Assembly: GCF_003202235.1 (NCBI RefSeq)
Contig: NZ_MASU01000005.1
Location: 1,116,001 to 1,180,000 of the forward strand
Length of the DNA: 64,000 bases
Origin: Prauserella flavalba
GTDB taxonomy: Bacteria; Actinomycetota; Actinomycetes; Mycobacteriales; Pseudonocardiaceae
Reading direction: 5' to 3'
This document shows, piece by piece, positions 8,158 through 23,524 of the stretch; positions within the stretch are counted from its first letter, which is position 1, and the number at the start of each line of letters is the position of its first letter. The notes beneath the pieces were generated by a model. That model had not been told where the DNA came from and searched no databases. It saw only the letters and a program-made list of their open reading frames with translations. The position numbers were made by a program, and so were the translations under genes.

Positions 8158-8655
8158 ATGTCCAGATCCGATCGGCCAACGGCCCTGCCCGCTGGACGAA
8201 CGGCGGCGGCACTCGACGCCGTCGACCGCGCCATGCTGGACGTGCTCGCCGACGACGCCCGGATCTCCGTCCGCGCACTGGCCGAGCGGCTGTCCATCTC
8301 GCGCGCCAACGCCTATTCGCGGCTGGACCGGCTACTGCGCGACGGCGTGGTCACCGGCTTCGCCGCGCGGATCGATCCACAGCGAGCCGGACTGGGCACC
8401 AGCGCCTACGTGCTGGTCACCGTCGAGCAGACGGCGTGGCGGGCGCTGAAGGACGCGCTGGGGGCGATCCCCCACGTCGAGCACATCGCGCTGGTCGGCG
8501 GCGACGTCGACGTGCTGCTGCTGGTCCGCACCCCCGACAACGCGACCCTGCGCGACGTGGTGCTGGGCCGGATCCAGGCCGTGGACGGCGTGCGGGCGAC
8601 CCGGACGTGGCTCGTGTTCGACGAGTTCCCCGGCGCGGGCTCCCCGCTGAGCTAG
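8158..8655 (+). CDS. Lrp/AsnC-family transcriptional regulator
   Basis: A 165-residue regulator with an N-terminal helix-turn-helix (about residues 28-75, RALAERLSISRANAYSRLDR) and a C-terminal RAM/ligand-binding domain (about residues 85-155). It is divergent from the 2-oxoacid dehydrogenase operon with a roughly 118-bp gap, the usual position of BkdR-type regulators that sense branched-chain amino acids. Role inferred from family and position. The TAG stop overlaps the stop of the convergent MOSC gene by a shared CTAG, so there is no room for a terminator between them. Confidence 0.9.
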   Translation: MSRSDRPTALPAGRTAAALDAVDRAMLDVLADDARISVRALAERLSISRANAYSRLDRLLRDGVVTGFAARIDPQRAGLGTSAYVLVTVEQTAWRALKDALGAIPHVEHIALVGGDVDVLLLVRTPDNATLRDVVLGRIQAVDGVRATRTWLVFDEFPGAGSPLS

Positions 8656-9713: not shown

Positions 9714-9922
9714 GACACCACCGATATCTCTGATGATGATTACGTTCCATTGCACCTTATCTGGATTGTGCCCGCGATGGCGGAACGTGCGCCGGACGAG
9801 AGCAGGGCGGCACCTGGCTCTATACCCGCACGGTATGGGTACGGCCGGGATCCGCCTTGGACGCGATCACCGCAGGTCGGGAGACTGGCGTGGCACGACC
9901 CGCAAGATCGAGAGGACCACTA

Positions 9923-10846
9923 GTGCCCATCCAGTCCACCCGTCGCCTCGCGGCCGCCGCCGTCGCGTTGCTGGCGCTCACCGCCTGTACCGCCAGTGGC
10001 GAACCACCGGTTCGCGAGTCGGCGGCGTCGTCCGCCCCGGCGGCGAGCACGGCGGCGGCAGCCACGGCCCACCGCGAGTTCGGCGAGCTGGAACAGCGGT
10101 TCGACGCGCGGCTCGGCGTCTATGCGATCGACACCGGCACCGGCCGGGAGATCGCGCACCGAGCCGGCGAGCGCTTCGCCTACTGCTCGACGTTCAAGGC
10201 GCTCGCCACCGCGGCCCTGCTCAGCGAGCGCACGGTCGCCGAGCTCGACGTGGTGGTGCCCTACACCGAGGCCGACCTGGTGACCTACTCCCCCGTCACC
10301 GAGAAGCACGCCGGGGCGGGCCTTCCCCTGCGCGAGGTGATGGACGCCGCGGTGCGCTACAGCGACAACACGGCGGGCAACCTGCTGCTGCGCGAACTGG
10401 GCGGCCCGAAGGGCCTGCAGGCCGCGCTGCGCGAGGTCGGCGACGAGACCACGCACGTCGACCGCTACGAGCCCGAGCTCAACGAGGCCACACCCGGCGA
10501 CATCCGTGACACCAGCACGCCCAGGGCGATGGCGGGCACCCTGCGCGCCTACGCACTCGCCGACGCGCTGACCGCCGAGAAGCGGGCGATCTTCGTCGAC
10601 ATGCTGCGCCGCAACCTCACCGGCGACGAGCTGATCCGTGCCGGGGTGCCGGACGGCTGGGTGGTCGGCGACAAGACCGGCAACGGCGACTACGCGACGC
10701 GCAACGACATCGCCGTCGTGTGGCCGCCGGACCGCGCCCCGATCGTGCTCGCGCTCATGTCGAGCCGCTCCGAGAAGGAGGCCGAGCACGACAACGCTCT
10801 CCTCGCCGAGGCCACGAAAACCGTGGTGGAGGCACTGCAGCCCTAG
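9923..10846 (+). CDS. bla: Class A beta-lactamase (serine, lipoprotein)
   Basis: Serine beta-lactamase that opens the beta-lactam ring. The 307-residue precursor starts with a lipoprotein signal ending in a lipobox (LLALTAC), so it should be anchored outside the cytoplasmic membrane. All class A motifs are present: STFK with Ser89, SDN at 147-149, EPELN with the deacylation Glu183, and KTG at 251-253. The GTG at 9923 is preferred because AGAGGA lies just upstream; the frame is open 22 codons further. The TAG stop overlaps the convergent SnoaL-like gene by CTAG. It has no linked BlaI/BlaR-type regulator, so expression is probably constitutive or controlled elsewhere. Confidence 0.95.
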
Positions 10847-11352
10847 CCGGCGGCGAGAGCGCGCGTGAGCGACGCGGCCGGGTCCGCCTCGCCGCGGGCG
10901 CCCCGCTTCCAGCTCGCCGGGCTCGGCGTGGCCGGGCCCGGCGGGGCCGCGTGTTCCCAGTCGAGGATCACCGTGCGCCGGGCGATCAGCCAGCGGCTCG
11001 TCCTGCGCTCGAACACGTCGAAATAGCGCAGACCCTGGAACACCGCTTCGGCGCCGGGGTCCTTGAATTCCCTGCGGTAGAGGCAGTACGTCTCCACCTC
11101 GGCCCGGTCCCCGGCCAGCGCGATCGTGGGCACGCCGAGGAAGTGGTAGGTGCTCGCGAGCGTCGCACCGTAGGACTCGAAGAACGCGAACAGCTCGTCC
11201 ACGGTGCCGCTGAACCGGCCGTGGTCGTCGGTGGCGTCGGCGTGGTAGCACGTGCGGGCGAGGGCCCGGTCGCCCCGGTCGATCGCGTGCGCGTACCGGC
11301 ACAGCACGTCGGTGATCTCGGCGCGGGCGAGCAGGTCGTCGAGCGCGGTCAT
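10843..11352 (-). CDS. SnoaL-like (NTF2-fold) protein
   Basis: A 169-residue protein of the SnoaL/NTF2-like alpha+beta barrel superfamily. The N-terminal helices [18 protein letters not shown] and the [11 protein letters not shown] segment are typical of the SnoaL_4 group, whose members act as cyclases, dehydratases or ring-modifying enzymes. The exact reaction is not deducible. The ATG at 11352 sits only 5 bp from the shared palindromic promoter/operator at 11357-11389. On the minus strand the predicted transcription start falls almost on the ATG, so a leaderless message is likely. It is divergent from the first SDR and presumably belongs to the same TetR regulon as the genes at 12956-23479. 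Confidence 0.8.
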
Positions 11353-11356
11353 AGCA

Positions 11357-11389
11357 TTGACAATGACGCACGCGTCATGTTTGAGTCAA
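11357..11389. promoter_or_regulatory. Divergent promoter with palindromic operator, copy 1
   Basis: Plus strand: TTGACA (11357-11362), a 17-bp spacer and TTTGAG (11380-11385). The spacer contains the palindrome ATGACGCACGCGTCAT (11363-11378). An outer TTGAC/GTCAA pair makes the site nearly symmetrical, so a second -35 (TTGACT) faces the SnoaL-like gene. The same element recurs at 17470-17501 with two changes in the palindrome that keep most of the symmetry. Probably bound by the TetR protein at 18684 (inference). Copy between SnoaL-like gene and SDR 1. Confidence 0.75.
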
Positions 11390-11443
11390 GAGGCTTTCGC
11401 TGCTGTTCCTCCACTGTGGACGATGGACGGAGAGGTCGTTGTC

Positions 11444-12202
11444 ATGAAGGGAGAAGACCGGCGGGTCGCCGTTGTCACCGGTGCCGCATCGGGGATCGGC
11501 GCCGCCATCGCCCGGCAGTTCAGCGGCGAGGGGCTGGACGTCGCCCTCCTCGACCGCGACGACGCCGGGCCGGTGCGCGACTGCCGCCCCGGCGAGACCC
11601 TCGCGCTCCGGTGCGACGTGCGCGACGACGCGGAGGTCGAGGCCGCGGTGGCCGAGACCGCGCGGTGGCGCGGCCGCATCGACGTCGTCGTCAACGCCGC
11701 CGGCGTGCTCGCCCGCGCGGGAATCCGGGACACCAGCTGGGAAACCTGGCAGTCGGTGCTCGACATCAACCTCACCGGCACGTTCCGCGTGGTGCGTGCG
11801 GCGCTGCCGTACCTCACAGACCCGGCCACGGCGGGCGCGAAACGCGTGGTCAACATCGGCTCCGGCGCGGCCGACCGCGGCTACGCCTACCCCGCCTACA
11901 CCGCGTCCAAGGGCGGCGTCGTGGCTCTGACCAGGGAGCTCGCCGCGGAGCTCGCTCCGGAGAACGTCACCGTCAACGCCGTCAACCCCGGATTCGTCCG
12001 CACGGCGATCAACGACGACGCGTGGTCCGACGATACCGCGCGGCACCGCTGGGAGCGAACCATGCCCCTTGGCCGCATGGGCCTGCCGGAGGAGGTGGCC
12101 GCGGTCGCGTGTTTCCTGGCCTCCCCCGCCGCGAGCTATCTCACGGGGCAGGTGATCCGGGTGGACGGTGGCCGCTCGGCGATCTCGGCGCGGCCGGCAT
12201 GA
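11444..12202 (+). CDS. Short-chain dehydrogenase/reductase 1
   Basis: Classical SDR of 252 residues that oxidises or reduces an alcohol/ketone with NAD(P). Motifs are TGAASGIG (cofactor loop), VVNAAG, a Ser in NIGSGAADRG, and the catalytic YTASK. The ATG at 11444 has AGAGG 8 nt upstream and is preferred over an ATG at 11423. It follows the palindromic promoter at 11357 directly and overlaps the second SDR gene by ATGA. Two consecutive SDRs suggest two successive alcohol oxidations, or reactions on stereoisomers, at the top of the catabolic pathway (inference). Confidence 0.92.
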   Translation: MKGEDRRVAVVTGAASGIGAAIARQFSGEGLDVALLDRDDAGPVRDCRPGETLALRCDVRDDAEVEAAVAETARWRGRIDVVVNAAGVLARAGIRDTSWETWQSVLDINLTGTFRVVRAALPYLTDPATAGAKRVVNIGSGAADRGYAYPAYTASKGGVVALTRELAAELAPENVTVNAVNPGFVRTAINDDAWSDDTARHRWERTMPLGRMGLPEEVAAVACFLASPAASYLTGQVIRVDGGRSAISARPA

Positions 12203-12933
12203 GCGGCGGCGAGCGGGTCGCGGGCAAGGTCTGCGTGGTCACCGGTGCCGCGGCGGGACTCGGTGCCGCGATCCGGAGGCTGCTGGCCGAGCACGGCGGC
12301 ACCGTGATCGGGCTGGACGTCACCCCGGCAGGCGACGACGGGCTGTGGCAGGTGGACATCCGCGACGAGACCGAGGTGGCCGGGGCGATGCGGCGCGTCG
12401 TGGCCGCACACGGCCGCATCGACGTGCTCGTGAACAACGCCGGGATCGCGGGCCCGCGCAAGCCCGCCCACGAGGTGACCGCCGAGGAGTTCGACGACGT
12501 CTTCGCCGTCAACGTCCGCGGCACCTGGCTGTGCACCAAGCACGCGGTCCCGCACATGCCCGAGGGCGGCAGCATCGTCAACATGTCGTCGATGTACGGG
12601 CTCGTGGGCAACTCGATGCTGCCGGTCTACCACGCCAGCAAGGGTGCCGTTCGGCTGATGTCCAAAGCGGACGCGGCGACCTACGCGTCACGCGGCATCC
12701 GCGTCAACTCGGTGCATCCCGGCTCGATCGAGACCGGTTCGACCGCCTCCGTGCGCGCCGACGTCACCGAGGCCGCGCGCCGGTACAACGAGCGCACGCT
12801 GGCGGCCATCCCGCTGGGTCACCGCGGTGAGCCGCTCGACGTCGCCTACGGCGTGCTGTACCTGACGTCCGACGAGTCGCGTTACGTCACGGGTACCGAG
12901 CTGGTCATCGACGGCGGCTACACGGCACTGTGA
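12199..12933 (+). CDS. Short-chain dehydrogenase/reductase 2
   Basis: A second classical SDR, 244 residues, with TGAAAGLG, NNAGIAG, NMSSMYGL and the catalytic YHASK, then HPGSIETG. This is similar in design to 3-alpha/beta-hydroxysteroid or cyclohexanol-type dehydrogenases, though the substrate is not determined. Its ATG overlaps the stop of SDR 1 (ATGA), so the pair is co-translated. It ends 22 bp from the convergent acyl-CoA ligase gene; the short gap holds only a 5-bp inverted repeat (TGACC/GGTCA). Confidence 0.92.
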   Translation: MSGGERVAGKVCVVTGAAAGLGAAIRRLLAEHGGTVIGLDVTPAGDDGLWQVDIRDETEVAGAMRRVVAAHGRIDVLVNNAGIAGPRKPAHEVTAEEFDDVFAVNVRGTWLCTKHAVPHMPEGGSIVNMSSMYGLVGNSMLPVYHASKGAVRLMSKADAATYASRGIRVNSVHPGSIETGSTASVRADVTEAARRYNERTLAAIPLGHRGEPLDVAYGVLYLTSDESRYVTGTELVIDGGYTAL

Positions 12934-12955
12934 GCCGCCGCCGGTGACCGCCCGG

Positions 12956-14974
12956 TCAGCCGAACCTGGTCGCGACAGCGTCGGCGGCCCAGCACTCCGT
13001 CGGCGTGACGATCAGCGGGTTGATCTCCACCGTCTCGTACTCCCCCAGGGCGGGGCCGGTGAACGCCTCGCACACGCGGGTCAGCGCGTCGACGGCGGCG
13101 GCGTGCCCGGTGACGCCGACCTCCGCCAGCAGGTGCTCGGCCTCCTCGGGGCGCAGGGGCAGCCTGCGGGTGAGCGAGCGGTTGGCCAGCTCGGTCGCCG
13201 TGCCGCCGAGCCCGACCACGACGTAGCGGCCCAGCACCGGATCGGTGTTGAGGCCGACGAGCACCTCCCGGCCGAACACCATCTCCTCGACCAGATAGCC
13301 CTCGATGTCCTCGGGAGAAAGCCCGGCGGCGACCACATTGGACTCGATCTCCTTGGCCGTCGCCGGCAGGTCGCCGGTCTGCGCGATGCCGAGGGCGACC
13401 CCGCCGATCCGGGATTTGTGGCTGATCGGGGCGAGCACCTTCACCGCGAACGGCGGCCGCAGCCCAGCGGCCGCGGAGGCCAGCTCGTCCGCGGCGGCGC
13501 GGACGCCGCGGACGACCGGCACGCCCGCGGCGGCGACCAGGTCGCGGGACGCCGCCTCGCTCAGCACCCTGGCGTCGGTGCCGACGTCGTGCGCCTTCGC
13601 CTCCTTCTCGCCCGCCGGGAACAGCTTGGCCAGCGCGGAGAACGTGAGCCGGAGGTTGTGCAGCACGGCCACGTGCGGGTGCCGTTCGCGGTAGCCTCGG
13701 ACGAACTCCGTGTCGGGCACCGGGGCCATCGAGTTGATAATCAAGGGCATCTCGTTGTCCGTGGACAGCCGGGCGAGATCGCCCCAGTTCCACGTGTGCA
13801 CCGACTCGTGGTCCGTCTCCGAGGGGAACTGCACGCTCCACGGCAGCAGGACCAGACCGGTGTTCGGGTCCTTGAACACGGTGCCGTTGATGCTCTCGTC
13901 GCCCTCGCGGCGCTTCACGCCGATCACGTCGAGTGGGTTGTCGATGAAGGAGCCCGGCCCGGCCAGCTCACGGATCTTCTCCACGGTGGCGTCGGCGAAC
14001 ACGGTGAGGTTGACGCCGTGCTTGTCGGCCAGGTCGCTGCAGAGCGCGGCGGCGCCACCGGAACCGCCGAGCACCGACACCGCGCGCTCGCGGCCGGACT
14101 TGACGCCGAGCAGGCACAACGTCGCCAGGCGCAGCAGTTCGTCGACGCCGTCGGCCCGCAGCACTCCGTGCTCACGCAGCAGCTCGGAGAACACCGAATC
14201 GGTGCCCGCGATGCTCGCGGTGTGGGACAGCACCGCGCGCTGGCCGCGCTCGGACACGCCCGACTTGAGCACGATGATCTGTTTGCCCACCTCCCGGGCG
14301 TAGTCGAACGCGGAGACGAACGCGGGCAGCTGCTGCTCGGAGACGCCCTCCAGGTACACGCAGACGACCTTCGTGGTGTCGCGGCGCAGCGCCAGCTCCA
14401 GCGCCTGCGGGACGCCGAGCACCGCGCCGTTCCCGGTGGAGGCACAGAAGTCCACGCCGAGGTTCTCCTGCGCTGCGGCGGCGAGGAACGCAGAGAGCAG
14501 CGCCCCGCTCTGCGACACGATCGACACCGGTCCCGGCCTCGCCTCCAGCCACGCGGGCTCGGCCACCGCGCACACGCGCTCGGCGAAGTCGGCGAACCCG
14601 ACGCAGTTCGGGCCCCACAACCGTGTCGGCGTGCCGGAGACGATCTCCACCAGCTCGGCCTGCAGCGCCCTGCCGACGTCGTCGCGTTCACCGAAGCCGT
14701 CGGTGACGAGCACGATGTCGCGGGTGCCCGCGGCGGTGAGCGCGCGGACCGCCTCGACGGCGGCCTCCCGCCGGATCGCGACGATCGCGGCGCGCGGGGT
14801 GACCGGCAGAGCGGCGACGTCGGGGACGGTGGCCAGGCCGGCGATGGTCTCGTGGTTGGGCGTCACCGGGACGACGTCGAGGTCCGGGTTGAGCGTGCGG
14901 AGGTTGTGCAGGGCACAGGTGGTCCAGAAGTTGCGGGGCGAGGCGCCGACGACGGCGACGAGGGGTCGGGACAC
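12956..14974 (-). CDS. Acyl-CoA ligase (ADP/NDP-forming), fused alpha-beta
   Basis: A 672-residue single-chain member of the NDP-forming acyl-CoA synthetase superfamily. It joins a carboxylic acid to CoA via an acyl-phosphate and phosphohistidine. Domain order is CoA-binding (residues 1-130, VVGASPRNF), succinyl-CoA-ligase-like (about 150-430) with the phosphorylatable His in LSHTASIAGTD, then an ATP-grasp domain (about 450-672; PFAVKVLAPISHKSRIGG, EINPLIVTP). The GTG at 14974 follows AAGGAGA. Last gene of the minus-strand operon that begins at the second palindromic promoter. It would activate the ring-opened acid before beta-oxidation, a role often taken by AMP-forming ligases instead. Confidence 0.9.
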   Translation of the reverse strand: MSRPLVAVVGASPRNFWTTCALHNLRTLNPDLDVVPVTPNHETIAGLATVPDVAALPVTPRAAIVAIRREAAVEAVRALTAAGTRDIVLVTDGFGERDDVGRALQAELVEIVSGTPTRLWGPNCVGFADFAERVCAVAEPAWLEARPGPVSIVSQSGALLSAFLAAAAQENLGVDFCASTGNGAVLGVPQALELALRRDTTKVVCVYLEGVSEQQLPAFVSAFDYAREVGKQIIVLKSGVSERGQRAVLSHTASIAGTDSVFSELLREHGVLRADGVDELLRLATLCLLGVKSGRERAVSVLGGSGGAAALCSDLADKHGVNLTVFADATVEKIRELAGPGSFIDNPLDVIGVKRREGDESINGTVFKDPNTGLVLLPWSVQFPSETDHESVHTWNWGDLARLSTDNEMPLIINSMAPVPDTEFVRGYRERHPHVAVLHNLRLTFSALAKLFPAGEKEAKAHDVGTDARVLSEAASRDLVAAAGVPVVRGVRAAADELASAAAGLRPPFAVKVLAPISHKSRIGGVALGIAQTGDLPATAKEIESNVVAAGLSPEDIEGYLVEEMVFGREVLVGLNTDPVLGRYVVVGLGGTATELANRSLTRRLPLRPEEAEHLLAEVGVTGHAAAVDALTRVCEAFTGPALGEYETVEINPLIVTPTECWAADAVATRFG

Positions 14975-15002
14975 GGCGATCGGGTCTCCTTCGAAGTGGG
15001 GG

Positions 15003-15821
15003 TCAGCGGGTGAGCGAGCCGCCCTCGGCGTACCAGGCGCGGGCCGCGCGGATGCCCAGCTCGGCGAGCTTGCCGGACATCCAGCGGTTGCCCTCGGAAG
15101 TGTGGATCAGGGCGTCCCAGCCGGCACAGCTGTCCAGGGTCTCGCGGAAGCCCTGCCGGATCAGCACGTCGTTGGCCGCGCGCTTCTTGATCTCCAGCAT
15201 GTCCAGCGGCGTCTTGGCGATCTCGGTGGCGACCTCCCTGGCCTTGGCGAGCACCTGATCCTCCGGCACGGAGTAGTTGGCCCAGCCGCGCCGCTCCGCC
15301 TCGGGTCCCATCATGTGGCTGCCCGCGGTGTAGGACAGCTCCTTGCCCTTCTTCGACCCGACCGCGTACGTCGCCACCGGGCCGAGCATGCCGCCGCCGA
15401 TCGGGAGCACCGGCCACGCGATCTTGGTGTCGTCGCCGACCACGGCCAGGTCCGCGCAGGCGGGGATCAGCGTCGCGCCGCCCATGCAGTAGCCGTGCAC
15501 GCTCGCGACCACGGGCTTCGGCACGTCGAACACCGCCGAGAACGCGCGGATGTGGCCGCGCAGGCGCAGCCAGTCCTCGTGCGCGGCGCGGTGCACGTAC
15601 CCGTTGCCCTCGGACTTCGGCCTGCTCACGTCCCAGCCGACGCTGAACGCACGGCCCTCGCCGCGCACGATGATCACCGACACGCTCGCGTCGGCCCCCA
15701 GCTCGGCCAGCGCCTTCTCGTAGGTGGTGAACAGCTCGTCGTTGAACGCGTTGAGCTTCTCCGGGCGGTTCAGGACCACCTCGGCGATCTTCCCGTTCCG
15801 CTCGGTGCGGACGACACTCAT
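15003..15821 (-). CDS. Enoyl-CoA hydratase/isomerase (crotonase) family protein
   Basis: A 272-residue crotonase. The fold is visible from LNRPEKLNAFND (N-terminus), AFSVGWDV (start of the oxyanion-hole region), SVHGYCMGGATLIPACADLAV (second oxyanion strand) and the long C-terminal helices. The usual hydratase Glu pair cannot be placed with certainty: IGGGMLGPVATYAVG has no obvious Glu, so it may be an isomerase, hydrolase or decarboxylase rather than a plain hydratase. AAAGGAACC precedes the ATG at 15821. Gaps to both neighbours are about 11-28 bp, so it is in the same transcript as the acyl-CoA ligase. Confidence 0.9.
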   Translation of the reverse strand: MSVVRTERNGKIAEVVLNRPEKLNAFNDELFTTYEKALAELGADASVSVIIVRGEGRAFSVGWDVSRPKSEGNGYVHRAAHEDWLRLRGHIRAFSAVFDVPKPVVASVHGYCMGGATLIPACADLAVVGDDTKIAWPVLPIGGGMLGPVATYAVGSKKGKELSYTAGSHMMGPEAERRGWANYSVPEDQVLAKAREVATEIAKTPLDMLEIKKRAANDVLIRQGFRETLDSCAGWDALIHTSEGNRWMSGKLAELGIRAARAWYAEGGSLTR

Positions 15822-15832
15822 GAAGGTTCCTT

Positions 15833-16453
15833 TCAGTGGGCGAGACGGTGGGCGAGGACGCCGGACGCGGTGACCACCGGGACGCCGAAGGACAGCGCCC
15901 AGTCGCGAGCCTCGTCGGGGCCGGCCTCCTGGAGCGGGTCCCGTTCCGACATCAGGCAGGCCCCGGCGGCGGCGAACCCGGCTCCGGCGAGCCGGACCAG
16001 ATCGAAGGCGGCTTCGCGGGCCGTGGCGCGGCCGAGCACGCCGTCGGGGTGGGCGCGGTAGGTGACCACGTGGCCGGGGCGCCGCAGCACCTCCGGGTCG
16101 GTGCCAGGGGTACCGAGCAGCGCGATCGTGCGGGCGCGGGCGTCGGACGAGATCCCGGTGCCGGTGCCCTCGGCATCGACGGCGACCCCGAACGCGGGCG
16201 CGCCGCGGTCGGCGGGCCCCTGCGCGGACAACCGCAGCCGGTCGGCCTCCGGTTCCGGCAGCGCCACGACGAGGAAGCCCGAGGTGTAGCGCACCGCGAG
16301 CGCGACCAGCTCCGTGGTGGCGTGCCGGGCGGCGAACACCAGCTCACAGTCCGGCCTCGCTCCGAGGTCGTCGATCACGACCACCGGCTTTCCTTGCCTC
16401 AGTGCGGAGAACGCGTGCTCGGTGTCCGTTATGGACTCGTGCAGGATCGTCAT
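15833..16453 (-). CDS. RibB-like (3,4-dihydroxy-2-butanone 4-phosphate synthase) homologue with altered active site
   Basis: A 206-residue protein whose whole length follows RibB: GKPVVVIDD, LVFAARHATTELVALAVRYTSGFLVVALP, TGIS, ARTIALL, RPGHV, then EAAFDLVRLAG and a C-terminal PVVTASGVLAHR. In true RibB the acidic metal loop after the two Asp residues reads roughly ENRENEGD. Here residues 30-37 are LGARPDCE, so the key metal-binding Glu is lost while the RPGH His is kept. Riboflavin precursor synthesis is therefore doubtful, and no other riboflavin gene is nearby. The ATG overlaps the phosphotriesterase-family stop (ATGA). It probably has a new role in the catabolic pathway. Confidence 0.75.
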   Translation of the reverse strand: MTILHESITDTEHAFSALRQGKPVVVIDDLGARPDCELVFAARHATTELVALAVRYTSGFLVVALPEPEADRLRLSAQGPADRGAPAFGVAVDAEGTGTGISSDARARTIALLGTPGTDPEVLRRPGHVVTYRAHPDGVLGRATAREAAFDLVRLAGAGFAAAGACLMSERDPLQEAGPDEARDWALSFGVPVVTASGVLAHRLAH

Positions 16454-17421
16454 GCCGCGCTCCGGGAGAAGATCGCGCGCGGGTTGTCCACCAGCATGAC
16501 GTCGATGTCGCGCTGGGACACCCCGGCCGCGAGGAGCGCGGGCACGACGTCCTCGGTGAGGTGTGTGAACCGCCAGTTGGGCAGGTGCTTCGCGCGGAAG
16601 TCGCCGGGGAAGTTGTGGCTGTGGCAGGACGCGTCGTGCGAGAGCACCATGCGCGAGGCGTACCCCCGTTCGGCGAGCGCGGCGACCGTCGCGACGCGCA
16701 TGTCGAAGGCGAGCTTGGTGTCCAGCCCGAACCGGTCCATGCCCAGGTAGGAGCCGTTGTCCAGCAGGCGCTGGAGGTAGTCCAGATCGTCCGAGTCGCC
16801 GCTGTGCCCGACGATCACGGCGCCCAGGTCGACGCCCTCCTCGGCGAAGATCTTCTGTTGGTCGAGGCCGCGCTGAGTGGAGACGTCGGTATGGGTGGAG
16901 ATCGGCACACCGGTCTCCAGGTGCGCCCTGGCCACCGACCGCAGCACGCGCTCGACGTCGGGCGTGACGCCGGGCACGTCGGTCGCGCACTTGAGGATCC
17001 CGGCTCGAATCCCGGTGCCCGCGATGCCCTCGGTGATATCGCGGACGAACATCCCGGTCATCGGCTCGTCACCGCCGATCAGGCGGCCGGGGCCGTGGAA
17101 CTTCAGGTAGTTGGGCAGCTCGGTGAACGTGTAGAAGCCGGTCGCGGCGATGATCCGTACCGGTGACCGTTCGGCCACGGCGCGTACCTTCCGGATGTCC
17201 CGGCCCAGGCCGAGCACGGTGAGGTCGACGATCGTGTCGATGCCGGCTTCCTTCAGCGCGACGAGCTTCGCGACCGCGTCGGCGGTGCGTTCCTCGTCGT
17301 CCCACGTCTCGGGATAGTTGACCGCGTACTCGTGGTTGATCACGAACACGTGCTCGTGCATGAGCACGCGTCCCAGCTGGTCGGTGCCGAGTGCGCCGGT
17401 CACGGTCTGGACGGTGGCCAT
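16450..17421 (-). CDS. Phosphotriesterase-family metal-dependent hydrolase (probable lactonase)
   Basis: Binuclear-metal amidohydrolase-fold enzyme of 323 residues. The metal ligands are in place: HEH at 22-24, the carboxylated Lys144 in GILKCATD, His in STHTDV, His in VIVGHSGD, and the final Asp in LSHDAS. Members of this family in actinomycetes are usually lactonases rather than true phosphotriesterases. Linked to an LLM-type monooxygenase, a lactonase that opens a Baeyer-Villiger lactone is a sensible guess (inference). First gene of the minus operon. Its ATG lies about 50 bp from the palindromic promoter at 17470 and has GAGGGAG upstream. Confidence 0.9.
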   Translation of the reverse strand: MATVQTVTGALGTDQLGRVLMHEHVFVINHEYAVNYPETWDDEERTADAVAKLVALKEAGIDTIVDLTVLGLGRDIRKVRAVAERSPVRIIAATGFYTFTELPNYLKFHGPGRLIGGDEPMTGMFVRDITEGIAGTGIRAGILKCATDVPGVTPDVERVLRSVARAHLETGVPISTHTDVSTQRGLDQQKIFAEEGVDLGAVIVGHSGDSDDLDYLQRLLDNGSYLGMDRFGLDTKLAFDMRVATVAALAERGYASRMVLSHDASCHSHNFPGDFRAKHLPNWRFTHLTEDVVPALLAAGVSQRDIDVMLVDNPRAIFSRSAA

Positions 17422-17469
17422 CGATGTGGTTCTCCCTCGGGGCGACGGCGGTGTCGGGGGCTCGCGCCG

Positions 17470-17501
17470 TTGACAATGACGCGCGTGTCATGTTTAGTCA
17501 A
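17470..17501. promoter_or_regulatory. Divergent promoter with palindromic operator, copy 2
   Basis: Plus strand: TTGACA (17470-17475), a 17-bp spacer and TTTAGT (17493-17498). The spacer holds ATGACGCGCGTGTCAT (17476-17491), closely matching copy 1 at 11363-11378. The outer TTGAC/GTCAA symmetry is also kept; on the minus strand TTGACT, 17 bp and CATTGT face the phosphotriesterase-family gene. This controls the LLM/TetR/acyl-CoA dehydrogenase operon to the right and the hydrolase/RibB-like/hydratase/ligase operon to the left. Position between -35 and -10 implies repression by steric exclusion. Confidence 0.78.
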
Positions 17502-17584
17502 GTGCGTCTTCACCCTGCGCTGCAAGGGTTTTCGTCAGCGCAGTGATCTGTCACCGATCTGTCACCGGGTCGCATTGGAGTGCC

Positions 17585-18637
17585 ATGAGCAACGTCGCCA
17601 CACCGCACTACGGGATCTTCAGCCTGTCCAACGTTCCGCCGTGGAACACGCACAACGAGGTCGTCAACAAGGCGCTCGAGCAGATCGTCCACGCGGACAA
17701 GCTCGGCTTCGAGGAGGCCTGGGTCGCCGAGCACAACGGACGCCGCTACGGCATCGTCGCCTCCGCCCAGCTGCTGCTCGCCGCCGCCGCGGCCGCGACC
17801 GAGCGGATCCGCCTCGGCTCCGGCGTGTCCCGCCTGCCCATGCACCACCCGATGCGACTGGCCGAGGACTACGCCTACGTCGACCAGCTCTCGGGCGGAC
17901 GCCTCAACTTCGGCATCGGCAAGGCCTACGACCGACTGGAGTTCCAGGCGTACGGCATCCCGGAGTCCGAACGCGACGAACGCTACGAAGAAGTCTTCGA
18001 GATCGTCACGCAGGCGTGGAAGACCGGGAAGGTCAAGTTCAACGGCAAGCACTACCAGGTCCCCGCCGAGGGTGAGGTGGCCGACGAGATCGAGCTGTTC
18101 CCTGAGGTCTTCCAGAAGCCGGCGCCGCCGGTGTTCGTCATGGTCTCCTCCAGCGAGGAGTCGCTGCGCTCCGCCGCCCGCCGCGGCTTCTCCTTCGTCC
18201 TCGGCCAGCGCCCGACCCGCGACGACGTGCGGCGGCTCGTCGGCGTCTACCGCGAGGAGGCCCGCGCGGCGGGGCACTCGTTCGACACGATCGACGAGAA
18301 CATCGCCCGCGCCTCGCAGCTCAAGGCCATCCACGTCGCCGACAGCCACGAGGAGGCCAGGAAGGAGTACGAGCACGGCTACATGTGGTATGTCAACATC
18401 CTGAGCAACCGCGCCAAGGTGGGCCTCGGCATCGACGAGCTGACCTACGACGAGTACATCGACCGCAAGACCCTGATCCTCGGCAGCGCCGACCAGGTCG
18501 CGGAGGAGCTCGCCTCGTTCCACAGCCACACCGGCCTCGGCGGGCTGGTGGCGTGGTTCGACGCCGGGAGCCAGCCGCAGGAGCAGGTTCTCCGTTCCAT
18601 GACGATGTTCGCGGAGAAGGTGCGCCCGCAGCTGTGA
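17585..18637 (+). CDS. LLM-class flavin-dependent oxidoreductase (monooxygenase)
   Basis: A 350-residue bacterial luciferase-like monooxygenase, TIM-barrel fold. Seen: FEEAWVAEHN near residue 45, RLGSGVSRLPMHHPMRLAEDYAYVDQLSGGRLNFGIGKAY (residues about 78-117) and a C-terminal ILGSADQVAEELASF. Such enzymes use reduced flavin delivered by a separate reductase. A flavin reductase gene lies in the same operon at 21593, so the pair probably forms a two-component monooxygenase acting by Baeyer-Villiger or oxidative cleavage chemistry. F420 use is an alternative. First gene of the plus-strand operon, 84 bp downstream of the palindromic promoter. Confidence 0.92.
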   Translation: MSNVATPHYGIFSLSNVPPWNTHNEVVNKALEQIVHADKLGFEEAWVAEHNGRRYGIVASAQLLLAAAAAATERIRLGSGVSRLPMHHPMRLAEDYAYVDQLSGGRLNFGIGKAYDRLEFQAYGIPESERDERYEEVFEIVTQAWKTGKVKFNGKHYQVPAEGEVADEIELFPEVFQKPAPPVFVMVSSSEESLRSAARRGFSFVLGQRPTRDDVRRLVGVYREEARAAGHSFDTIDENIARASQLKAIHVADSHEEARKEYEHGYMWYVNILSNRAKVGLGIDELTYDEYIDRKTLILGSADQVAEELASFHSHTGLGGLVAWFDAGSQPQEQVLRSMTMFAEKVRPQL

Positions 18638-18683
18638 ATCGCGAGAATGGCGCCGAACTGTCGGCGAGCGAGTTGAGGTGACG

Positions 18684-19400
18684 ATGGCGACCGGCGAGGC
18701 AACGGGTGGTCGGCGGACCGGGTCGAGGGTGGCCCGCGAGCGCGCGGAGACACAGCCGCGCACGGCACGGGGGCAGAAGACCCGGGAACGGCTGCTCACG
18801 GCCGCCCGCACGGTGTTCGAGACCAAGGGGTTCCTGGATACCCGGGTCTCCGACATCTGCGACGAGGCCGGCCTGGCGCACGGCACGTTCTACATCTACT
18901 TCCCGGACAAGGAAGAGATCTTCTACACCCTGGTCGACTCGGTGGTCGCCGATCGCTACCTGCTCACGGCCGTCCCCGAGGACTTCGAGGGCGACGTCGC
19001 CGACCGTTTCGCCTACACGCTCCGGCAGTACTTCGAGGAGATGAAGCGCGCCCGGCACTTCAGCCGCATCGTCGAACAGGTCGCTACCTTCGACGAGCAC
19101 ATGCGCGACCACCGCATGCGGATCCGGCGCAAGTTCCGCGAGCGCATCCAGCACGGCATCGAACGACTGCAGCAGCGGGGCGCCGCCGATCCGGACATCT
19201 CGGCCGAGCTCACGGCCGAGGCCCTCGTCGCGATGATCAACAACTTCGCCTACATCAACTTCATCCTCGGCGAACGCGACGACCTCGACATCGAGCAGGT
19301 CGTCGCCACACTGACCAGCATCTGGGCGCGCGCGGTGGCGCTGGACCTCGACAAGGCCAACGCCAACGACACCAAGCGCCCACCGAAACGAAAGACTTGA
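18684..19400 (+). CDS. TetR-family transcriptional regulator
   Basis: A 238-residue TetR-type regulator. The HTH lies at about residues 35-80 (RERLLTAARTVFETKGFLDTRVSDICDEAGLAHGTFYIYFPDKEEIF), with a helical ligand-binding domain behind it. The ATG at 18684 has GAGG 5 nt upstream and is preferred over a GTG at 18678. It sits inside the operon it probably regulates: 46 bp after the LLM gene and 5 bp before the acyl-CoA dehydrogenase. The two identical-design palindromes at 11363 and 17476 have the size expected for a TetR operator. The inducer is probably a pathway intermediate, perhaps an acyl-CoA (inference). Confidence 0.92.
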   Translation: MATGEATGGRRTGSRVARERAETQPRTARGQKTRERLLTAARTVFETKGFLDTRVSDICDEAGLAHGTFYIYFPDKEEIFYTLVDSVVADRYLLTAVPEDFEGDVADRFAYTLRQYFEEMKRARHFSRIVEQVATFDEHMRDHRMRIRRKFRERIQHGIERLQQRGAADPDISAELTAEALVAMINNFAYINFILGERDDLDIEQVVATLTSIWARAVALDLDKANANDTKRPPKRKT

Positions 19401-19405
19401 ACCGT

Positions 19406-20638
19406 ATGGATTTCACCGTCCCCGACGACGCGAAGGAGACCGCCCAGGCTGTCCTCAGCTTCGTCGAGCGCTACGTGGAGCCGATCGAGCGCGAGTACGC
19501 GGATCTGCTGCAGGATGAGCGCAAGAGCCACGACGAGCGCGGCCTGCTCCAGCCTGAGGTGCTCAAGCTCAAGAAGCAGGTCCGCATGGCCTCCGCCGAG
19601 GCGGGCTTCTACACCATGTTCGGCGACGAGTCGCTCGGCGGCGGCGGGCTCGGCGAGGTCGCGCTCGTCCACATCCAGGAAGAGCTCAACCGGGCATGGG
19701 GACCGCGGCGCACGCTCGTGCACGAGAACGTCGTGCCCTCGGTGTTCACCAACGGCCTGAGCCCGATCCTCACCGAGCTTCGGCCCGCCGTCCGCGAGGC
19801 CCACGTCCCCGGGATCGCGTCCGGGGAGAAGACGCTGTGCTTCGGCCTGTCCGAACCGGGCGCCGGCTCCGACGTCCAGCGCATCCGGACCCGCGCGGTA
19901 CGCGACGGCGACGAGTGGGTCATCAACGGCTCCAAGCAGTGGATCACCAACGCGCCCTACGCGGACTACTGCATCCTGTTCGCGGTTACCGACCCCGAGG
20001 CCAACGCGGCGCGCCGTGGCGGCATCACCGCGTTCTTCGTCGACACCAGCAGCGACGGGTTCGAGTGCACCAGCACGATTCCGATCCTGGGCAACATCGG
20101 CTCGCACATCGGGATCGTCTCGGTGGACGACCTCAGGGTCCCGGACGAGCACGTCATCGGAACCGTCCACAAGGGACTCGCACTCGCGCTGCTCGGGATC
20201 AGCAAGGGCAGGCTGTCGATGTCCGCGATGTGCGTCGGCCTCGCCCGCTGGTCGCTGGAGAAGGCACTCGACTACGCGCGGCAGCGGGAGACCTTCGACA
20301 GCGTCATCGGCGACCACCAGGCCATCCAGATCAAGCTCGCCGAGATGGCGATGGACATCTACGCGGCCAAGTCCGTGGTCGGCCGCACCGCGGCGCTCGT
20401 CGAGAGCAAACAGCGCGCCATCAAGGAAACTTCCATCACGAAGGCCCTGTGCACCGAGATGCTCGGCCGGGTCGCCGACGCCGCGATGCAGGTGCACGGC
20501 GCGATGGGGCTGACCAATGAGCTGCGGCTGCAGGACGTGTGGCGGCACGCGCGCACCCTGCGCATCCCAGACGGCACGTCCGAGATCCAGCGCCGGACCA
20601 TCGCCGGCAGGCTACTCGCCGGCGACAGCGACCTGTGA
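19406..20638 (+). CDS. Acyl-CoA dehydrogenase
   Basis: FAD-dependent acyl-CoA dehydrogenase of 410 residues. It shows FGLSEPGAGSDVQ (FAD/substrate loop), WVINGSKQWITNAPYADY, FDSVIGDHQAIQIKLAEMAMDIYAAK, and the C-terminal VHGAMGLTNELRLQDVWR...RIPDGTSEIQRRTIAGRLL. The position of the catalytic base (usually Glu in the helix before DGT) cannot be assigned securely by eye. The ATG at 19406 is chosen; a TTG at 19397 overlapping the TetR stop is possible. It desaturates the CoA ester made by the ADP-forming ligase and so feeds the crotonase of the opposite operon. Confidence 0.93.
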   Translation: MDFTVPDDAKETAQAVLSFVERYVEPIEREYADLLQDERKSHDERGLLQPEVLKLKKQVRMASAEAGFYTMFGDESLGGGGLGEVALVHIQEELNRAWGPRRTLVHENVVPSVFTNGLSPILTELRPAVREAHVPGIASGEKTLCFGLSEPGAGSDVQRIRTRAVRDGDEWVINGSKQWITNAPYADYCILFAVTDPEANAARRGGITAFFVDTSSDGFECTSTIPILGNIGSHIGIVSVDDLRVPDEHVIGTVHKGLALALLGISKGRLSMSAMCVGLARWSLEKALDYARQRETFDSVIGDHQAIQIKLAEMAMDIYAAKSVVGRTAALVESKQRAIKETSITKALCTEMLGRVADAAMQVHGAMGLTNELRLQDVWRHARTLRIPDGTSEIQRRTIAGRLLAGDSDL

Positions 20639-20645
20639 GGTGGCG

Positions 20646-21578
20646 ATGTCCCCCGACCTCCCCAAGTACTCGGAACTTCCGCGCCTCGACGACTACGGCA
20701 ACCACTCGTGGGGCGTCTTCGGCGCGGACGACGAGCTCGGCACCCTCAACCTGATCGACGCGGACGGGGTGCGGGAGGCCACGAGCCTCGTCCGCACCGG
20801 CGAACGGGCCGGGCTCAGCCTGCCGCTCGACCAGCCGGATCCGCCGCTGTTCCGGCGGGAGCGGTTCCAGCACACCATGAGACGCGCCGGCAGCATGTGG
20901 GACGACCGGCTCGACTCGTTCTTCCCGCAGGGCTCGACCCAGTGGGACGGTTTCCGCCACCACCGCGTGCGCCAGCACGGCTTCTACGGCGGCGTCACCG
21001 ACGATCCGGCGCCGGGCAACCCGAGGCTGAGCATCCACCACTGGGCGAGCTCGGGAATCATCAGCCGAGGGGTGCTGCTCGATGTCGCGCGGCACCTCGG
21101 CGACCTGGACGCGCTGGCCGGGCGGTCGATCACCGCCGACGACCTGTGCGCCGTGGCCGAAGCGCAGCGCGCCGAGATCCGGCCCGGCGACATCCTGTGC
21201 GTGCGCACGGGCTGGCTGGCCGCCTACCGCGGGCTCGGCCCCGACGGCCGGGCGGCGATCTCCGCGCAGAAGTCGTCGTTCACCTCCGCCGGTCTGGCCG
21301 CCGACGAGGCGACCGCGGAACTGTTGTGGGACTGGCACATCGCGGCCGTCACCGCGGACAACCCGGCCGTCGAGGTGACACCAGGCGACGCCGCGGTCGG
21401 CAGCCTGCACCGGCGGCTGCTGGGCATGCTCGGCATCCCGCTCGGCGAGTTGTTCGACTTCGAGACCCTCGCGGCAAGGCTGCACGAGGAGGGACGGACG
21501 GACTTCCTGTTCGTCTCTGTCCCACTGTCCCTCGTGGGCGGGCTCGGCTCGCCCGGCAACGCGGTCGCCGTGCTCTGA
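20646..21578 (+). CDS. Cyclase-family metal-dependent hydrolase (kynurenine formamidase-like)
   Basis: A 310-residue protein of the bacterial cyclase family that includes kynurenine formamidase and isatin hydrolase. The characteristic metal-binding segment appears as GSTQWDGFRHHRVRQHGFYGG near residues 98-118. Compared with the usual HxGTHxDxPxH motif, the first His is replaced by Gln, a variant known in long members of the family. The ATG at 20646 follows GAGG and lies 7 bp after the acyl-CoA dehydrogenase stop. It would hydrolyse a C-N or C-O bond in a ring or lactone. Two hydrolases of different folds in one regulon suggest two ring-opening steps (inference). Confidence 0.88.
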   Translation: MSPDLPKYSELPRLDDYGNHSWGVFGADDELGTLNLIDADGVREATSLVRTGERAGLSLPLDQPDPPLFRRERFQHTMRRAGSMWDDRLDSFFPQGSTQWDGFRHHRVRQHGFYGGVTDDPAPGNPRLSIHHWASSGIISRGVLLDVARHLGDLDALAGRSITADDLCAVAEAQRAEIRPGDILCVRTGWLAAYRGLGPDGRAAISAQKSSFTSAGLAADEATAELLWDWHIAAVTADNPAVEVTPGDAAVGSLHRRLLGMLGIPLGELFDFETLAARLHEEGRTDFLFVSVPLSLVGGLGSPGNAVAVL

Positions 21579-21592
21579 CCCAGGAGAACCTC

Positions 21593-22060
21593 ATGACTGT
21601 CCCCGGTCACGTCATGCGGGACGTGCTCGGCTCCTTCTGCTCGGGAGTCGTGGTCGTCACCGCCGCCACCCCCGAGCCCGTCGGGTTCACCTGCCAGTCG
21701 TTCGCCTCCCTGTCACTCGACCCGCCGCTCGTGACGTTCGCGCCCGGCCGCGGGTCGCGCACCTGGCCGCGCATCAGGCAGGCAGGCGGGTTCTGCGTCA
21801 ACATCCTCGCCGCCGGCCAGCGGCACCTGAGCGACCAGTTCGCGCGGTCCGGCACCGACAAGTTCGCCGGGGTCGGCTGGTCGCCAGGTGAGTCCGGGTC
21901 CCCCGTGCTCGACGGCGTGCTCGCATGGGTCGACTGCACCCTGTGGGCCGAGTACGACGGCGGCGACCACACGATCGTCATCGGCGAGGTCCGGGCGCTG
22001 GCGAGCGATCCACGCCGTGACCCGCTGCTGTTCCACCGCGGCGCGTACCTCGCGTCCTGA
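21593..22060 (+). CDS. Flavin reductase (NAD(P)H:flavin oxidoreductase)
   Basis: A 155-residue flavin reductase-like split-barrel protein. VMRDVLGSFCSGVVVVTA, GFTCQSFASLSLDPPLVTFAP and GGFCVNILAAGQRHLSDQFA are the standard motifs of the reductase component of two-component monooxygenases (HpaC/SnaC type). GGAGAA precedes the ATG at 21593. It probably supplies reduced FMN or FAD to the LLM monooxygenase encoded at the start of the same operon. Confidence 0.92.
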   Translation: MTVPGHVMRDVLGSFCSGVVVVTAATPEPVGFTCQSFASLSLDPPLVTFAPGRGSRTWPRIRQAGGFCVNILAAGQRHLSDQFARSGTDKFAGVGWSPGESGSPVLDGVLAWVDCTLWAEYDGGDHTIVIGEVRALASDPRRDPLLFHRGAYLAS

Positions 22061-22168
22061 CCAGCTGACTGACCCAACACCGTGATCCGGGCCGGGACCT
22101 CCCGGCCGTACCTCCGCCTGCCCGGAGTCCGGGCTCGTCCGTGTCCGCTCTCAACGAAGAGAGAGATC

Positions 22169-23479
22169 ATGTCGCGACTTCAGCCGAAGCGCGCCGCAGC
22201 CGCGAGCGTCATCGGCACCACCATCGAGTACTACGACTTCTTCATCTACGCCACCGCCGCGGCGCTGGTGTTCAACAAGGTCTTCTTCCCCTCGCTGACC
22301 GGGTTGACGGGAACGCTGGTGTCCCTGTCGACCTTCGCCGTGGCGTTCCTGGTGCGCCCGCTCGGCGGTGTCATCATCGGGCACCTCGGCGACAAGGTCG
22401 GGCGCCGCCCGATGCTCGTGCTCACGCTGACCCTCATGGGCGGCGCGACCCTCCTCATCGGACTGTTGCCGGGCTACGCTTCGATCGGCGTCACCGCGCC
22501 GGTGCTGCTGATCCTCCTCCGCATCGTCCAGGGTTTCGCGATGGGCGGGGAGCTCGGCGGCGCCGTGCTGCTGACGATGGAGCACAGCCAGCCGGAGCGC
22601 CGCGGGTTCTACGGCAGCTGGGTCCAGATCGGCGGCCCGCTCGGGCTCGTCGTGGCGACCCTCGTCTTCCTGCCGCTCAACCTGCTGCCCCAGGACGACT
22701 TCCTGGCGTGGGGCTGGCGCATTCCGTTCCTGCTCAGCGCCATCCTGGTCGTCGTGGGCTACGTCCTGCGCCGCACCATCGACGAGAGCCCCACGTTCAC
22801 CGAGATCAAGCGCAAGGGCGCCGTCGACAAGGCACCGGCGCTGACCATCCTGCGCAGGTACCCGGCACGGACGTTGCTCGTGGCCGCGACGACGCTGAGC
22901 GGCGGCGTGGCGTTCTACATGATGTCGGTGTTCGGACTGTCCTACGCGACCGAGGAACTCGGCCTCACCCGGCAGACGATCCTGCTCATCGTGCTGGTCT
23001 CGATGGTGCTGGACTGCCTGATGGTGCTGGCCTCGGGCATCATCTCCGACCGGATCGGCAGGCCGAAGATGATCATGTTCGGCATGGTCGGCAAGGCTGC
23101 GCTGGCGTTCCCGTGGATCTGGCTGCTCGACAGCGGCAACCCCTGGATCGTCTTCCTCGGGTACGTGCTGTTCTGCATTCCGCACGCCGCGGGCCAGGGG
23201 GTGGCAGGCGTCTTCTACGCGGAGACGTTCCCCGCCAAGGTCCGCTACTCGGGCCTCTCGATCGGCTACACCCTCGGCATGATCGGCGGCAGCGCGATCG
23301 CCCCGATGGTCGCGACGAGCCTGGTCGCGGCGTGGGGTACCGGGGCGCTCGGCTGGTACATGCTGACGATGAGCCTGATCTCGACGATCTCGACGACGAT
23401 CATCCTGCGCTCGCCGAAGATCACCGGACGCGATGTCGAGGAGGAGACACCGGTGGCGAAACCGGAATTGGCGGGCTGA
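22169..23479 (+). CDS. MFS transporter, metabolite:H+ symporter type
   Basis: A 436-residue 12-helix transporter. The first helix contains IGTTIEYYDFFIYATAAALV and loop 2-3 contains GHLGDKVGRRPML. These mark the MHS subfamily (proline/betaine, shikimate and dicarboxylate importers). The ATG at 22169 after AGAGAGAGATC is preferred; the frame is open from 22082 but without a ribosome-binding site. Last gene of the operon and the likely uptake system for the substrate of the degradation pathway. A polar, probably acidic substrate is suggested by the subfamily. A weak hairpin at 23492 follows. Confidence 0.92.
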   Translation: MSRLQPKRAAAASVIGTTIEYYDFFIYATAAALVFNKVFFPSLTGLTGTLVSLSTFAVAFLVRPLGGVIIGHLGDKVGRRPMLVLTLTLMGGATLLIGLLPGYASIGVTAPVLLILLRIVQGFAMGGELGGAVLLTMEHSQPERRGFYGSWVQIGGPLGLVVATLVFLPLNLLPQDDFLAWGWRIPFLLSAILVVVGYVLRRTIDESPTFTEIKRKGAVDKAPALTILRRYPARTLLVAATTLSGGVAFYMMSVFGLSYATEELGLTRQTILLIVLVSMVLDCLMVLASGIISDRIGRPKMIMFGMVGKAALAFPWIWLLDSGNPWIVFLGYVLFCIPHAAGQGVAGVFYAETFPAKVRYSGLSIGYTLGMIGGSAIAPMVATSLVAAWGTGALGWYMLTMSLISTISTTIILRSPKITGRDVEEETPVAKPELAG

Positions 23480-23491
23480 GTCCTTCCCGGC

Positions 23492-23514
23492 GCCCGGGGT
23501 GTCCGTGCCCGGGC
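23492..23514. terminator. Candidate bidirectional terminator hairpin
   Basis: GCCCGGG (23492-23498) pairs with CCCGGGC (23508-23514) across a 9-nt loop, in the 45-bp gap between two convergent genes. There is no T tract on either strand, as is usual for actinomycete terminators. Modest strength, so low confidence. Confidence 0.4.
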
Positions 23515-23524
23515 ACCGGGGTCG

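Follow-up and report, generated by a model that had tools for sequence, protein, structure and literature searches.

The window analysed here, a 64,000-nucleotide stretch of the Prauserella flavalba genome, contains a predicted catabolic cluster of 13 genes whose four transcription units leave two intergenic blocks of shared sequence. An EthR-like, TetR-family regulator encoded in the cluster is proposed, with a probability of roughly 0.75, to bind the spacer that opposed promoters share at each block and thereby to shut off all four transcripts, its own included.

A first-pass annotation of the same DNA had described two sites, each with a TTGACA box and a 16-bp palindrome and each situated between divergent genes. 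Both were located, at 11357 and 17470, between genes for a SnoaL_4-domain protein (-) and a short-chain dehydrogenase (SDR, +), and between genes for a phosphotriesterase-family (PTE) hydrolase (-) and a luciferase-like monooxygenase (LLM, +), respectively:

11357..11389, no strand: site 1, proposed two-way promoter/operator block between SnoaL_4 (-) and SDR1 (+); kept in G001, G253, G267 and G323
11363..11378, no strand: proposed operator core of site 1, ATGACGCACGCGTCAT; 7/8 dyad pairs
17470..17501, no strand: site 2, proposed two-way promoter/operator block between PTE (-) and LLM (+); 34 invariant columns in 6 genomes
17476..17491, no strand: proposed operator core of site 2, ATGACGCGCGTGTCAT; 7/8 dyad pairs

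The blocks span 32-33 bp. From 11357, site 1 consists of TTGACA, ATGACGCACGCGTCAT and GTTTGAGTCAAG; from 17470, site 2 consists of TTGACA, ATGACGCGCGTGTCAT and GTTTAGTCAAG. The inverted repeat ATGAC-N6-GTCAT (positions 7-22 in site-2 numbering) is present in both divergent regions and is kept in relatives. The dyad is broken at pair 8/9 in site 1 and at pair 6/11 in site 2; because the mismatched pairs differ, nothing compensates, and the compensating changes previously reported between the two palindromes were not found. Outer TTGAC/GTCAA arms, described in the same annotation as an additional symmetry, are indeed present. However, their axis lies at 16.5 in the site-2 block and at 17 in site 1, while that of the operator lies at 14.5, so that arms and core do not form one palindrome.

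Palindromy carried little weight in this analysis. A total of 83 16-mers in the window matched in 7 or 8 of their 8 dyad pairs; among them, 11 pairs of 16-mers, the site pair included, were near-identical (at most 2 mismatches), and the core alone, with 3 mismatches allowed, gave 4 matches against a mean of 4.61 in 100 shuffles. The first-pass argument against chance from the pair of palindromes was therefore weak, and palindrome statistics by themselves were dropped as evidence. The case rests instead on the extended block that both sites share and that relatives conserve. At up to 3 mismatches, TTGACAATGACNCNCGNGTCATGTTT occurred at only two places in the whole 8,093,541-base genome, sites 1 and 2, and a reversed-pattern control at none. 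That these are chance palindromes or a mobile repeat with no regulatory role is hardly credible: although matches to the 16-bp core at 3 mismatches are no more frequent than expected by chance, and this GC-rich window contains many near-palindromic 16-mers, the block was found nowhere else in the genome and was kept through rearrangement in five genera, at gene starts of this cluster. A genome scan with the core only, at 2 mismatches, yielded 60 forward and 56 reverse matches versus 37 and 36 for the control; it was too unspecific, and no further regulon members are therefore claimed from it.

Conservation was assessed in a family sample of 390 genomes, P. flavalba included. At up to 3 mismatches TTGACAATGACNCNCGNGTCATGTTT gave 14 sites in seven genomes, compared with 2 for the control in the same 390, and in the seven clusters fetched all 14 sites lay inside versions of this cluster, upstream of cluster genes. 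Allowing 4 mismatches added two sites in the fetched loci (L036 6491 and L043 867), for a total of 16. An alignment of the PTE-LLM intergenic region from P. flavalba, its same-genus relative G001, G267, G253, G409 and G183 contained 34 consecutive invariant columns, against a mean column identity of 54%; G323 was omitted on account of its tandem site and inserted transporter. In the SnoaL-SDR regions of P. flavalba, G001, G267, G253 and G323 the block was kept; a small number of changes lies in the right-hand half of the core and immediately outside it. Both half-sites, ATGAC and GTCAT, were intact in 12 of the 16 sites (the other four being three in G323 and one in G183), and individual sites matched 5 to 7 of the 8 dyad pairs. 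The first-pass annotation had named absence of the palindromes from related clusters with the same genes as grounds for rejection; the outcome favoured its view, as all seven clusters with a close TetR homologue had the operator. The more distant clusters of G364 and G411, in which TetR is 35-46% identical, had no site.

The cluster itself occurs in seven of the 390 genomes and five genera of the family. In locus L040 (G267) the LLM and PTE proteins are 96 and 95% identical, across genera, to those of the window, which together with this distribution suggests horizontal transfer of the cluster. A search for LLM at E 1e-100 in 394 genomes drawn evenly from the class returned the P. flavalba genome only.

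In rearranged clusters, the sites follow the transcription units. G409 has its SnoaL and SDR genes at the end of the LLM operon and a single site. At up to 4 mismatches, G183 contains four sites; the blocks of two are identical, and one of this pair lies between SDR2 and a CoA-transferase gene. Its TetR gene is found behind a branched-chain-type ABC transporter operon with a site of its own; as TetR thus again stands behind a site, autoregulation would be kept in G183 through a different promoter. In G323 a TRAP transporter (DctP, DctQ, DctM), on the same strand as PTE, is inserted between PTE and the LLM-side site, which is itself a tandem pair (L043 835-900). CTCAT replaces GTCAT in all three G323 copies; in one of them the left half-site reads ATGAG as well, a true paired change. 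The recognition helix carries Asn in the G323 TetR, His in five others and Gln in G409. Covariation of TetR helix and operator in G323 is only suggested by these differences, because G409 has Gln and yet an unchanged operator. The first-pass view of one operator at two divergent promoters is supported by this pattern, since the operator was kept in seven of seven clusters with a close TetR and followed the units where these were rearranged.

Searches with the TetR protein at E values up to 1e-35 gave matches in 47 of the 390 genomes. In seven of these the identity reached 60% or more (60 to 100%), and in the other 40 every listed match was at most 46% identical. The seven genomes with the closer homologue were exactly the seven with operator sites, in line with the earlier suggestion that the cluster's own TetR is the likeliest binder. 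LLM, at E values up to 1e-90, was found in nine of the 390 genomes, the two outside the seven being G364 (LLM 73%, TetR 45-46%) and G411 (LLM 65%; closest TetR within the 20 kb fetched, 35%). The scan of the 390 genomes with TTGACAATGACNCNCGNGTCATGTTT found no site in G364 or G411. Since both have LLM, lack a close TetR and lack the site, the site appears, on these two cases, to track the regulator rather than the enzymes. A search of genome contigs with TetR returned 17 loci, of which three were close (72-82%; Prauserella cavernicola, Saccharopolyspora ipomoeae and P. halophila) and not independent of the seven operator genomes.

Membership of the TetR fold family is settled by sequence. The TetR_N helix-turn-helix (PF00440) scored 50.3 bits against a cut-off of 24, and the EthR C-terminal domain (PF21313) 31.5 bits against 27; the G183 homologue fell below the latter cut-off (21.0 bits). 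At equivalog level, no NCBIfam model reached its cut-off for this protein (19 families listed, no EthR model among them).

Binding of the sites by a regulator other than the cluster's TetR is quite improbable. Co-occurring genes do not fully separate the candidates, TetR binding is a prediction, and an Lrp/AsnC gene is present at 8158-8655. However, no regulator besides TetR was found in the 13-gene set, and none of the ten fetched cluster loci (L036-L045) contains a homologue of the Lrp. Moreover, the relocated TetR gene of G183 again lies behind a site, and sites are absent where TetR has diverged.

Regions around TetR genes were also fetched from G364, G344, G329, G371, G024, G381, G051, G118 and G361, together with more of G183; among the nine other genomes, only G364 had a related cluster. 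Between its MFS and LLM genes, this diverged cluster (TetR 45-46%) has a different palindromic block, given as CTTGACTTTGATATCAAGTCAAG and, at L072 8585-8605, as TTGACTTTGATATCAAGTCAA, which occurs once in the G364 genome. It is possibly the same switch with another operator.

Two overlapping promoters of opposite orientation are probably present in each block. In site 2, the proposed rightward elements are a -35 box TTGACA (1-6) and, after 17 bp, a -10 box TTTAGT (24-29); the proposed leftward elements are a -35 box TTGACT (32-27) and, again after 17 bp, a -10 box CATTGT (9-4). In site 1 both proposed spacers are 18 bp and the rightward -10 is TTGAGT. Each proposed -35 box of site 2 overlaps the opposite -10 by 3 bp. 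TTGACA and AGTCAA were kept in 12 of 12 sites that serve both sides. At the two one-way sites, both in G183, CGTCAA was kept towards the gene and GTAACA or CTAACA stood on the idle side. In the tandem pair of G323, the left box survives in one copy and the right box in the other. The outer arms are better explained as the -35 boxes of two opposed, overlapping promoters than as part of the operator.

The SnoaL-type gene is probably transcribed without a leader, because its start codon lies only 8 nt past CATTGT in P. flavalba, G001 and G253; in G267 the start is a GTG at 7 nt (read by eye). The G323 gene has a longer leader. In Mycobacterium tuberculosis, leaderless transcripts are reported for 26% of genes that have a primary start site, with the -10 centred 7-12 bp upstream (PMC3898074).

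Alternatively, TetR could bind while the outer TTGAC/GTCAA arms serve as half-sites for a second dimer, with promoters elsewhere in the intergenic regions. This arrangement is unlikely, although several observations are compatible with it. The outer boxes are as invariant as the core, and EthR motifs are described as larger and multi-copy in PMC4482099. A strict sigma-70 scan of 9900-24000 found no promoters, because the proposed -10 boxes are weak and lack part of TANNNT; the same scan gave three terminator-like sites against a shuffle mean of 3.8. However, compared with site 2, the right arm of site 1 is shifted outwards by 1 bp, which suits sigma spacing more than a fixed multi-dimer site, one arm decays at the one-way sites of G183, and the putative leaderless start of SnoaL leaves room for a promoter only inside the block.

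Several points weigh against the proposed two-way repression by TetR. Besides the null promoter scan and its cause, the decay of boxes at one-way sites rests on a single genome, G183. The dyad is imperfect, and four of the 16 sites depart from ATGAC/GTCAT. The Fisher's exact value for close TetR versus operator, 3.9e-15, overstates the association, as the genomes are not independent samples and the 60% threshold was chosen with the gap already in view. The cluster genes also co-occur with TetR, so that co-occurrence alone cannot single out the regulator and only G364 and G411 separate the two. The Gln of the G409 TetR is found with an unchanged operator. Finally, the proposal is a prediction from sequence.

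The first-pass estimate of about 13 genes agreed with the count from open reading frames and Pfam, which gave 13 genes in four units leaving the two sites (assignments without further detail are from Pfam):

10843..11352, - strand: SnoaL_4-domain protein; start codon 8 nt past the proposed -10, probably leaderless
11444..12202, + strand: short-chain dehydrogenase SDR1
12199..12933, + strand: short-chain dehydrogenase SDR2
12956..14974, - strand: ADP-forming type acyl-CoA ligase (Succ_CoA_lig, ATP-grasp_5, CoA_binding_2)
15003..15821, - strand: enoyl-CoA hydratase/isomerase family protein (ECH)
15833..16453, - strand: RibB-like protein (DHBP synthase domain)
16450..17421, - strand: phosphotriesterase-family hydrolase (PTE), likely a lactonase (PTE 6.4e-96; best PDB match 4if2, 7.1e-114)
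17585..18637, + strand: luciferase-like monooxygenase (LLM; Bac_luciferase 1.9e-57)
18684..19400, + strand: TetR-family regulator, EthR-like, proposed repressor (TetR_N 2.1e-13, EthR_C 2.4e-07; best PDB match EthR, 9.5e-13)
19397..20638, + strand: acyl-CoA dehydrogenase (ACAD)
20640..21578, + strand: cyclase-family hydrolase
21584..22060, + strand: flavin reductase
22169..23479, + strand: MFS transporter

The units are SnoaL_4; SDR1-SDR2; PTE-RibB-like-ECH-CoA ligase; and LLM-TetR-ACAD-cyclase-flavin reductase-MFS. The TetR frame is open from a GTG at 18678, and the ATG at 18684 was taken as its start. Judged by family, LLM with flavin reductase, the PTE hydrolase, the CoA ligase, ACAD, ECH and the SDRs suggest oxygenation of a ketone or ring, followed by opening of a lactone or ester and then by CoA-dependent steps. 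The transporter type varies between clusters, from MFS in P. flavalba (22169-23479) to ABC in G183 and TRAP in G323, and these transporters point to an imported, probably acidic, substrate. Nine of ten cluster proteins had NCBIfam matches, and among the matches listed (the best 25 for some proteins) no model reached its cut-off. In the open-access literature searched, two papers combined five of six enzyme terms, neither of them concerned with such a cluster judging by title and abstract. The RibB-like lone-domain protein (15833-16453) also occurs in four other clusters (L040, L042, L044 and L045; 56-71%) and not in L036 or L038. Elsewhere in the window, two 26-bp stretches at 10624 and 38920 differ at one position, the first lying inside a class A beta-lactamase-like gene (9923-10846). 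An Rfam scan of the window gave no matches.

In the proposed mechanism, each 32-33 bp block would combine two promoters on opposite strands with one operator, ATGAC-N6-GTCAT, that fills their common spacer. Bound to this operator as one dimer or as two, the EthR-like TetR (18684-19400) would block RNA polymerase in both directions and so shut the SnoaL, SDR1-SDR2, PTE-RibB-ECH-CoA ligase and LLM-TetR-ACAD-cyclase-flavin reductase-MFS transcripts. Because the TetR gene lies inside the LLM unit, apparently behind the operator of site 2, TetR would also repress its own gene. The tight repression foreseen in the first-pass annotation likewise stands as a prediction. Release would come from a small molecule, probably the substrate or a lactone or acyl-CoA intermediate of the catabolic pathway; by analogy, a lactone is a reasonable first guess.

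More tentatively, the 33-bp block may be a portable two-way cassette of interdigitated promoters around a single TetR operator, which has been copied, kept, trimmed or split. One dimer would then silence both strands, and polymerases would exclude each other. The cassette would have been copied before recruited operons in G183 (two identical copies, one before the CoA-transferase gene, and a variant before the ABC-transporter/TetR operon) and kept despite the TRAP transporter insertion in G323. Decay of the unused -35 would have made it one-way in G183, and in G323 its -35 boxes would have been divided between tandem copies.

EthR of M. tuberculosis provides the closest solved structures by sequence (E 9.5e-13), and the EthR_C domain scores above the Pfam cut-off here. 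EthR represses the divergent monooxygenase gene ethA. The EthR motif differs in being larger, multi-copy and not a simple palindrome, according to PMC4482099, and other genes are regulated here. By function, the nearest analogue found was QsdR of Rhodococcus erythropolis, described in PMC6262395 as a TetR-like protein that represses a PTE-like lactonase together with an acyl-CoA ligase and is released by a lactone ring. In that account qsdA and the QsdR gene are divergent, with under 200 bp separating them, whereas here TetR is encoded within the LLM operon at a distance of over 1 kb from PTE, and many more genes are involved. AcrR at PacrA/acrR, as presented in PMC12825309, is likewise a TetR-family auto-repressor that blocks both directions of one compact promoter region. 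There, part of the -10 hexamer is common to both directions, whereas here the putative -10 boxes stand apart (24-29 and 9-4) and would each overlap the -35 box of the other promoter, with the operator occupying the spacer that both promoters share; moreover, the regulator gene here is not one of the two divergent genes, and the regulated genes differ. Tn10 TetR (PMC3511530) binds as a dimer to palindromic operators between the divergent genes tetR and tetA and represses both, its own included, but it uses two 15-bp operators in one intergenic region to control an efflux pump, whereas here one operator would lie in each of two regions and control catabolic genes. In the open-access literature, none of five operator strings appeared in a relevant paper (one occurred in an unrelated plant paper), and no paper on single-operator two-way promoters was found.

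One TetR-type repressor acting on divergent promoters is a textbook principle; what is distinctive, though not new in principle, is the proposed interdigitated arrangement and its repeated use as a block. The analysis offers a specific candidate regulator-operator pair for an uncharacterised catabolic cluster, and identifying the inducer would give a lead to the substrate. A small natural experiment is provided by the variants in G183 and G323, in which a two-way promoter appears to lose one direction and in which TetR helix and operator are possibly changing together.

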